Assembly (NCBI RefSeq): GCF_004745575.1
Contig: NZ_RPEM01000005.1
Coordinates: 241,009 to 296,200, forward strand
Length of the DNA: 55,192 nucleotides
Source of the DNA: Pseudotabrizicola sediminis
Lineage (GTDB): Bacteria; Pseudomonadota; Alphaproteobacteria; Rhodobacterales; Rhodobacteraceae
Direction of reading: 5' to 3'
Positions 2,107 through 2,957 of this stretch are shown here, one piece after another (the first letter of the stretch is position 1; every line of letters begins with the position of its first letter). The notes below the pieces were generated by a model that was given only the letters and a program-made list of their open reading frames with translations, searched no databases and was not told where the DNA came from. The position numbers and the translations under genes are program-made.

Positions 2107-2170
2107 ACCCCGATCGTCCCGCTTCCGCCCAAAAATTCCCGTTGCTTCCCAGACCATCCCGTGGCATCCC
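2107..2170 (+). promoter_or_regulatory. MraZ operator: 10-bp-phased TCCC box array
   Basis: Four-base boxes occur at exact 10-nt steps: ACCC (2107), TCCC (2117), GCCC (2127), TCCC (2137), TCCC (2147), TCCC (2157) and TCCC (2167). On the other strand this reads GGGA repeats with 5-6 nt spacers. MraZ of E. coli binds TGGGN repeats separated by 5 nt upstream of mraZ to repress the dcw cluster, so this is very probably the autoregulatory operator. Five of the seven boxes are perfect. Confidence 0.75.
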
Positions 2171-2341
2171 TTGGTCATCGAAACGGGCAGTACGAACAGC
2201 AGCGGCAGCTTCAAGACCGCAAACAGGCGAAACAGTCAGGCTTCATACAGGCAACCCGTTTAGACAAACAGATCCGGCGCGCGAGCGAGCAGACATCTCC
2301 CCCAGGTGGCGCGCGTAGCTGGACGCCCAGCGATGGGACAG

Positions 2342-2390
2342 GCGGCGGATCGAGCAGTGGCAGCAGCTCGGTCCGCCGCATTCATTTCTG
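2342..2390 (+). terminator. Leader hairpin/attenuator upstream of mraZ (UpsM-like 3' end)
   Basis: A 14-bp GC-rich stem (2342-2355 pairs with 2366-2379, one G-U) with a 10-nt loop is followed by ATTCATTTCTG. It lies within the mraZ leader, about 65 nt before the start codon. In R. sphaeroides the abundant sRNA UpsM comes from partial termination and cleavage in the dcw 5' leader, and this hairpin would be the equivalent 3' end. A second GC hairpin (CCCCC/GGGGG, 2392-2405) follows at once. That an RNA is actually made is inference. Confidence 0.5.
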
Positions 2391-2444
2391 GCCCCCGTCC
2401 GGGGGTCACCTCGACGGAAAGGGACGGGCGAAAGCTCAGGCAAT

Positions 2445-2957
2445 ATGTCGGACATGTTTCGCGGTGAATACTACCAGAAGGTAGATTCCAAGGCCCGGGT
2501 CTTGATCCCGGCACCGTTCCGACGTGTCCTTGACGCTGGCGATCCCCGCAGTGCCGACACCCCGCGCACCCGTATGATCATCGTCTACGGCGGCAAGAAC
2601 CGCCAGTTCTGCGACTGCTATTCCATGGCAGGTGCCGATGCGCTGGCCCGCTGGGTCGAGACGATTCCCTTGGGAAGCAAGGACCGGATCAAGGCTGAAC
2701 GAGATCTGATCACCCGCTCTGCCACTGTGGAAATCGACGACGATGGCCGCATCGTGCTGCCCGGCCCGGTGCGCGAAAAGCTGGCCATCACCTCCGAAAT
2801 GATAAAGGAGGGCGTCGAGTCGGCCCTCGCTGGTTCCACCGACCGCTTCTCGTTGTGGCGCGCAGACGCCTACCGCGACGTGTTCGGCGATGATGACGAT
2901 GATGATGACGGCGAAGATGCCCTTGCGGTGGTTGGCCGTTACCCAAAGGCAGGGTGA
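2445..2957 (+). CDS. mraZ: MraZ transcriptional regulator of the dcw cluster
   Basis: MraZ is a SpoVT/AbrB-like DNA-binding protein that forms rings and represses its own dcw operon. Both half-domains are visible, with the motifs [13 protein letters not shown] near the N-terminus and [13 protein letters not shown] in the second repeat. The protein is 170 residues, longer than the roughly 150 of E. coli, because of a C-terminal tail with a run of seven aspartates encoded by GAT/GAC repeats (2889-2911). An in-frame ATG at 2454 (giving MFRGEYY) is an alternative start. A phased box array (2107-2170) in its leader is its likely operator. Its stop codon is one base before the rsmH start. Confidence 0.95.

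Follow-up and report, generated by a model that had tools for sequence, protein, structure and literature searches.

The 55,192-nucleotide stretch of DNA analyzed here (the window) carries, ahead of mraZ, the first gene of the dcw cluster, seven short boxes at exact 10-nt steps that very probably constitute an operator for MraZ. The boxes would be read on the minus strand, would lie inside the dcw promoter, and would provide negative feedback on the dcw genes as well as on an UpsM-like small RNA (sRNA). The array keeps its phase among relatives and stands in fixed register with a conserved promoter-like pair of elements, TTG-N17-(C/T)AT(C/A)CC, and mraZ encodes a protein of the MraZ fold with both DxxxR motifs. 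Judged from its sequence, the array appears to be an extended version, embedded in the promoter, of a known kind of site, that of MraZ autoregulation. What is unusual is the number of boxes and the upstream placement of the extra ones.

The box array and the mraZ gene

Direct reading and a script both place CCC triplets at 2108, 2118, 2128, 2138, 2148, 2158, and 2168, which confirms the seven boxes at 10-nt spacing described in a first-pass annotation of this DNA. With the preceding base included, boxes 1 to 7 read ACCC (2107–2110), TCCC (2117–2120), GCCC (2127–2130), TCCC (2137–2140), TCCC (2147–2150), TCCC (2157–2160), and TCCC (2167–2170) on the plus strand; the annotation's count of five TCCC boxes was also found to be correct on reading. 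On the minus strand, all seven boxes contain GGG, five read GGGA, and two read TGGG. The full E. coli-type TGGG is confined to boxes 3 and 5, with the others reading GGGG, CGGG (three boxes), or AGGG. The boxes are of the GGGA type on this strand, and the family consensus is TGG(G/A)A.

Outside the array, no run of CCC or GGG at 10-nt spacing longer than two was detected when the whole window was scanned by script. When the 651-base intergenic region was shuffled 20,000 times by mononucleotide and scored for both CCC and GGG at periods of 6–15, runs of six or seven never appeared: the best run was 1 in 568 shuffles, 2 in 16,873, 3 in 2,506, 4 in 51, and 5 in 2. When the organism's own genome was searched for three TCCCR-type boxes at 10 bp with zero mismatches, two overlapping places were identified, both within the array. 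Allowing one mismatch added five more places, two of them again within the array, and the control search with the pattern read backwards returned 3 places. A pattern of four CCC matched 89 places in the same genome, four in the array and most in a single poly-C tract. This tract of about 110 bases (G000:C1:456137-456251) lies outside the window and is perhaps an assembly artefact.

The assignment of MraZ to a reading frame beginning at 2445 in the first-pass annotation was borne out. The gene (2445–2957, plus strand) encodes a protein of 170 aa that matches PF02381 (E 2e-11) and has one DxxxR motif in each of its MraZ/AbrB-type domains (D14–R18 and D98–R102); D14, R18, and R102 do not vary across 34 sequences. 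A structure model of the protein (mean pLDDT 90.3; 34 sequences) matches solved MraZ chains, including the Mycoplasma genitalium MraZ-promoter entries 9R4J and 9SZ7 (E 5e-10 and 2e-9). A direct sequence query with the window's MraZ found no solved relative; a profile query did find one. The nearest named relative as judged by MraZ is Pseudotabrizicola formosa (95%).

Downstream of mraZ are rsmH-, ftsL-, and ftsI-like reading frames (named by reading only), and a gene for an Mrp/NUBPL-type ATPase is located upstream of the array at 678–1793. Further upstream, the minus strand carries a small DUF1127-like reading frame of 71 aa (206–421), its family likewise assigned by reading. Downstream of this frame, at 1–184, four short hairpin-like units display GAGGAGG on the plus strand and CCTCCTC on the coding strand, a motif of the kind found in the CcsR1-4 sRNAs. 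Together, the reading frame and the four units resemble the R. sphaeroides locus for ccaF1 and the sRNAs CcsR1-4, which the available part of PMC8625941 describes.

Overlap with the putative dcw promoter, and the predicted leader

The dcw cluster of R. sphaeroides is reported to have a single promoter 268 nt before mraZ (PMC5089854, available text). By homology with R. sphaeroides UpsM, the corresponding start in the window would be at about 2177, since this is the position reached by counting 268 nt back from the mraZ start at 2445. A putative −35 element (TTGCTT, 2142–2147, plus strand) was assigned from the conservation of the hexamer and its distance from the start known in R. sphaeroides, and a putative −10 element (CATCCC, 2165–2170, plus strand) follows it after 17 nt and ends 7 nt before 2177. 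With these assignments, box 4 would abut the −35 element, boxes 5 and 6 would fill the 17-bp spacer, and box 7 would form part of the −10 element. The first-pass annotation had placed the array in the dcw leader, a placement that is not supported: by analogy with R. sphaeroides, transcription probably begins at about 2177, just past box 7, and the array is probably not in the leader but spans the predicted −35 and −10 elements. Among 87 anchored family members (see below), 30 have TTGATT and 18 have TTGCTT as the first hexamer and 38 have CATCCC as the second, with the TTGATT and CATCCC counts being partly built in because the anchor string itself holds TTGATT and ATGGCAT. A consensus sigma-70 scan called no promoter at the site of the array and the two elements.

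The predicted leader of 268 nt (2177–2444, plus strand; start placed by homology only) would include an UpsM-like RNA. Its fold has a z-score of −2.32, and RNAfold predicts a long hairpin at 2341–2379 on the plus strand that is a candidate terminator. A simple terminator scan reported none, the 2341–2379 hairpin included, and no match in the window reached the Rfam gathering score. The UpsM-like leader contains a conserved CATACAGGC together with the long terminator-type hairpin. According to the available text of PMC5089854, most dcw transcripts of R. sphaeroides stop at the leader terminator and constitute the sRNA UpsM, with read-through producing the dcw mRNA, and UpsM reportedly accounts for about 60% of Hfq-bound sRNA in that organism. 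The window would be similar in having a long leader before mraZ, a candidate terminator hairpin, and a putative promoter about 268 nt upstream, although the start and the sRNA are assigned here by homology and MraZ boxes go without mention in the available text on the R. sphaeroides promoter (PMC5089854).

Conservation of the phase and alternative readings

The family survey covered 198 genomes, 190 of them with MraZ. Upstream regions were read for 90 family members (30, including the window's own, plus 60) and 13 further members of the genus, giving 103 in total. Fifteen of these could not be anchored and one (L022) was left out because it was anchored inside a coding region, leaving 87 regions: 14 from the genus and 73 from other family members. 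The anchor omitted the letters of the boxes. Three regions judged by eye to be misanchored (L044, L076, and L104) were kept among the 87, and the in-phase family counts are slightly low as a result.

Within the genus, CCC runs at 10 nt reach a maximum of 7 in three members, 6 in five, 5 in three, and 4, 2, and 1 in one member each, and at periods of 8, 9, 11, and 12 no run longer than 2 was found in the 14. The longest strict CCC run outside the genus is 5, seen in 2 of the 73 other family members. CCC is present at boxes 1 to 7 in 3, 10, 11, 13, 13, 12, and 11 of the 14 genus members, respectively, and in 1, 9, 34, 9, 27, 66, and 34 of the 73 others, where the two inner C are found at box 4 in 30 and at box 5 in 65. 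Counted from the TTG, CC occurs at −13, −3, +7, +17, and +27 in 46, 30, 65, 69, and 42 of the 73, and at −23, −33, and +37 in 12, 6, and 5. Upstream, the two box phases sum to 68 and 73 over four steps, and the other eight to 6–26. The +37 box is little kept in these family members (5/73); Pseudotabrizicola extends upstream instead. Boxes 1–3 are, on this comparison, an upstream extension of the putative operator that is best developed in Pseudotabrizicola, where CCC runs of six or seven occur in 8 of 14 members.

Whether these upstream boxes are part of the operator is less certain. A MraZ operator made up of boxes 4–7 (or 3–7) only, with boxes 1 and 2 being the site of an upstream factor and in phase by chance or through shared helical geometry, is a reading we consider quite possible, if somewhat improbable. 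It would fit with the low occurrence of CCC at boxes 1 and 2 (3/14 and 10/14 in the genus, 1/73 and 9/73 elsewhere) and with the finding that several genus members read ACCAAATCTGCCC over these two boxes, a stretch that corresponds in position to copy two of a tandem ACAAGATnTTGT-like element. Such a pair, whose copies are separated by 30 bp and lie at about −63 and −33 relative to the −35 element, was found in 24 of 88 family regions (among them L054 and L056) and, at any spacing of 28–33, in 34 of 88, compared with 0 of 111 random 100-nt stretches; the 88 regions include the misanchored L022. The window itself holds only a weak first copy at 2078–2089, with 4 mismatches. We considered an NrdR site as the identity of the pair, an assumption on our part. 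Upstream of three ribonucleotide reductase genes in the organism's own genome, the search yielded one single near match and no pair, and a pattern search matched in 3 of 41 relatives. In 8 genomes chosen for carrying the pair, it matched in all 8 and at some other places as well, at two of which no nrd gene was recognized by eye.

Candidate upstream factors are known from R. sphaeroides, where ChIP-seq located NtrX (PMC7240162) and CenR (PMC9275681) upstream of mraZ, as reported in the available portions of both sources. However, neither GCA-N9-TGC (NtrX) nor TGA-N8-TGA (CenR) was detected in the stretches scanned. The chance of three extra CCC falling in exact phase is also small, near 1e-5 from the local CCC frequency. 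Moreover, all nine letters of boxes 1–3 are identical in P. formosa and again in a second relative (L093), while the neighboring positions (−40 to −5) vary, with 19 of 27 identical in the former and 17 of 27 in the latter. We favor the reading in which all seven boxes belong to the operator.

The survey of the class covered 115 genomes, 95 with MraZ, and 70 upstream regions from outside the family were read (30 plus 40). Of these, 69 were long enough to be analyzed, including one at a contig end (L157) that may not reach the promoter. On the minus strand, 63 of the 69 have a run of three or more TGG spaced by 10 bp, the longest run being 3 in 14 regions, 4 in 27, 5 in 21, and 6 in 1. The same measure gave 0, 0, 1, and 0 of 69 at periods of 8, 9, 11, and 12, and the plus strand had no such run at 10 bp in any of the 69. 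With the looser cores GGG or GG(G/A) the controls were noisier, periods other than 10 bp giving runs of 4 or 5 in single cases. Two-letter GG cores gave runs of 9 in L208 and 7 in L155 and L231, and because of these runs the length of seven boxes may not be unique. The longest TGG run is 3 to 5 in 62 of the 69 class regions; measured against these, the excess in the window is about two to four boxes, and E. coli is a poor yardstick.

A TTG-type hexamer is present in the window's phase in 34 of the 63 class arrays, with the other 29 having no match in phase; 20 further TTG-type matches lie one base off that phase. The hexamer 17 bp past the in-phase TTG is TATCCC in 27 of the 34, TATACC in 5, TAATCC in 1, and TAACCC in 1. 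Boxes are found in these 34 arrays at −3 in 25, at +7, +17, and +27 in all 34 (partly by construction), at +37 in 21, and at −13 in 8. The putative operator is, from these comparisons, a class-wide feature that typically reaches from the −35 element to just past the −10 element. A lack of conserved 10-bp periodicity in close relatives was one of the outcomes that the first-pass annotation named as refuting its call of a MraZ operator with 10-bp phasing, and the retention of the phase in genus, family, and class supports that call at the level of sequence.

The same pattern of conservation bears on the idea that the minus-strand GGG tracts fold into a G-quadruplex controlling the promoter, as proposed for S. 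aureus, where a quadruplex is reported in the mraZ promoter region in the available text of PMC11796246 and G tracts likewise lie near the mraZ promoter. The 7-nt loops in the window just satisfy the usual rule of four G3 tracts with loops of 1–7, and a quadruplex-type motif fits 12 of the 14 genus members and, in the class, 13 of 30 upstream regions. However, only 6 of the 73 other family members have the motif, whereas these 73 keep the 10-bp phase with two-C boxes, and exact 10-nt steps are not demanded by quadruplex rules. Because, in contrast to the S. aureus proposal, the other family members retain the phase mostly without G3 tracts, a G-quadruplex was rejected as the conserved function and we consider it very unlikely. 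A role of the CCC boxes at the RNA level, as C-rich segments left unpaired in an extended leader, would suit the leader placement of the first-pass annotation and the sRNA known from the R. sphaeroides dcw leader (PMC5089854, available text), but this reading was rejected as barely credible, given that homology puts the transcription start after box 7, that 63 of 69 class relatives show the same phase and a 34-array subset of them has −35 and −10 hexamers within the boxes' span, and that Rfam returned nothing at its gathering score in the window.

Relation to known MraZ sites and a proposed mechanism

Published MraZ sites consist of direct repeats with a 10-bp step at the start of the dcw cluster, and the array described here is, as far as its sequence tells, of the same kind, on the opposite strand and fused with the putative promoter. 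E. coli MG1655 has three TGGG boxes on the plus strand, the first of them 43 nt before the mraZ start codon, as read from its sequence. The first-pass statement that E. coli has only about three TGGGN repeats, fewer than the window, was correct as to the number; the E. coli boxes lie on the other strand and near the mraZ start codon. Both arrays consist of GGG-cored direct repeats at exactly 10 bp immediately ahead of mraZ and dcw, but the window has seven, on the minus strand, about 275–340 nt upstream of the start codon and overlying the predicted promoter. The B. cenocepacia PmraBc site is also made up of 10-bp repeats at the dcw promoter, namely four 7-nt repeats with 3-nt spacers on a fragment that MraZ shifted in gels; these repeats lie downstream of the −10 element over the start site, whereas the array in the window would run from upstream of the −35 element to the −10 element (PMC7761207, available text). 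For Mollicutes, the MraZ site is given as (AAAGTGKN3)3 in the accessible part of PMC5282649. The PDB titles of the two M. genitalium complexes are 'MraZ in complex with its promoter' (9R4J) and 'with 4 box promoter' (9SZ7). Their fold is that of the modeled MraZ of the window, and they share a box-array promoter with it, although the title of 9SZ7 names four boxes while the window has seven. In the open-licence literature we found no description of a MraZ operator in Alphaproteobacteria, which is weak evidence of absence, and no paper treating StsR, UpsM, mraZ, and the promoter together.

In the operator reading, one box per helical turn would allow MraZ, the product of the first gene, to bind along one face of the DNA. 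Bound MraZ would cover the −35 element, the spacer, and the −10 element, blocking RNA polymerase and establishing negative feedback on dcw. Because the same promoter would make both transcripts, MraZ should also set the UpsM-like RNA. Boxes 1–3 may contribute additional affinity or accommodate a second MraZ assembly. The first-pass suggestion that the longer array may bind a full MraZ ring and alter the repression response is speculative, as is the binding of two rings. A more elaborate model, which we put forward as doubtful, is that in Pseudotabrizicola and its near kin the promoter-embedded operator of Alphaproteobacteria has lengthened in the upstream direction to six or seven boxes, making room for two side-by-side MraZ assemblies, one on four boxes at the promoter and the other on three boxes farther upstream, where a possible activator would sit. 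If the boxes then filled cooperatively, autorepression would become switch-like, the upstream factor would be displaced, and dcw and the UpsM-like sRNA would both depend on how much MraZ is present.

Many bacteria have MraZ at the front of their dcw cluster. For Alphaproteobacteria, the comparison yields a putative class-wide operator sharing bases with the −35 and −10 elements, and a natural series of about 3 to 7 boxes in which to ask how box number sets repression. It also predicts a link between MraZ and UpsM.
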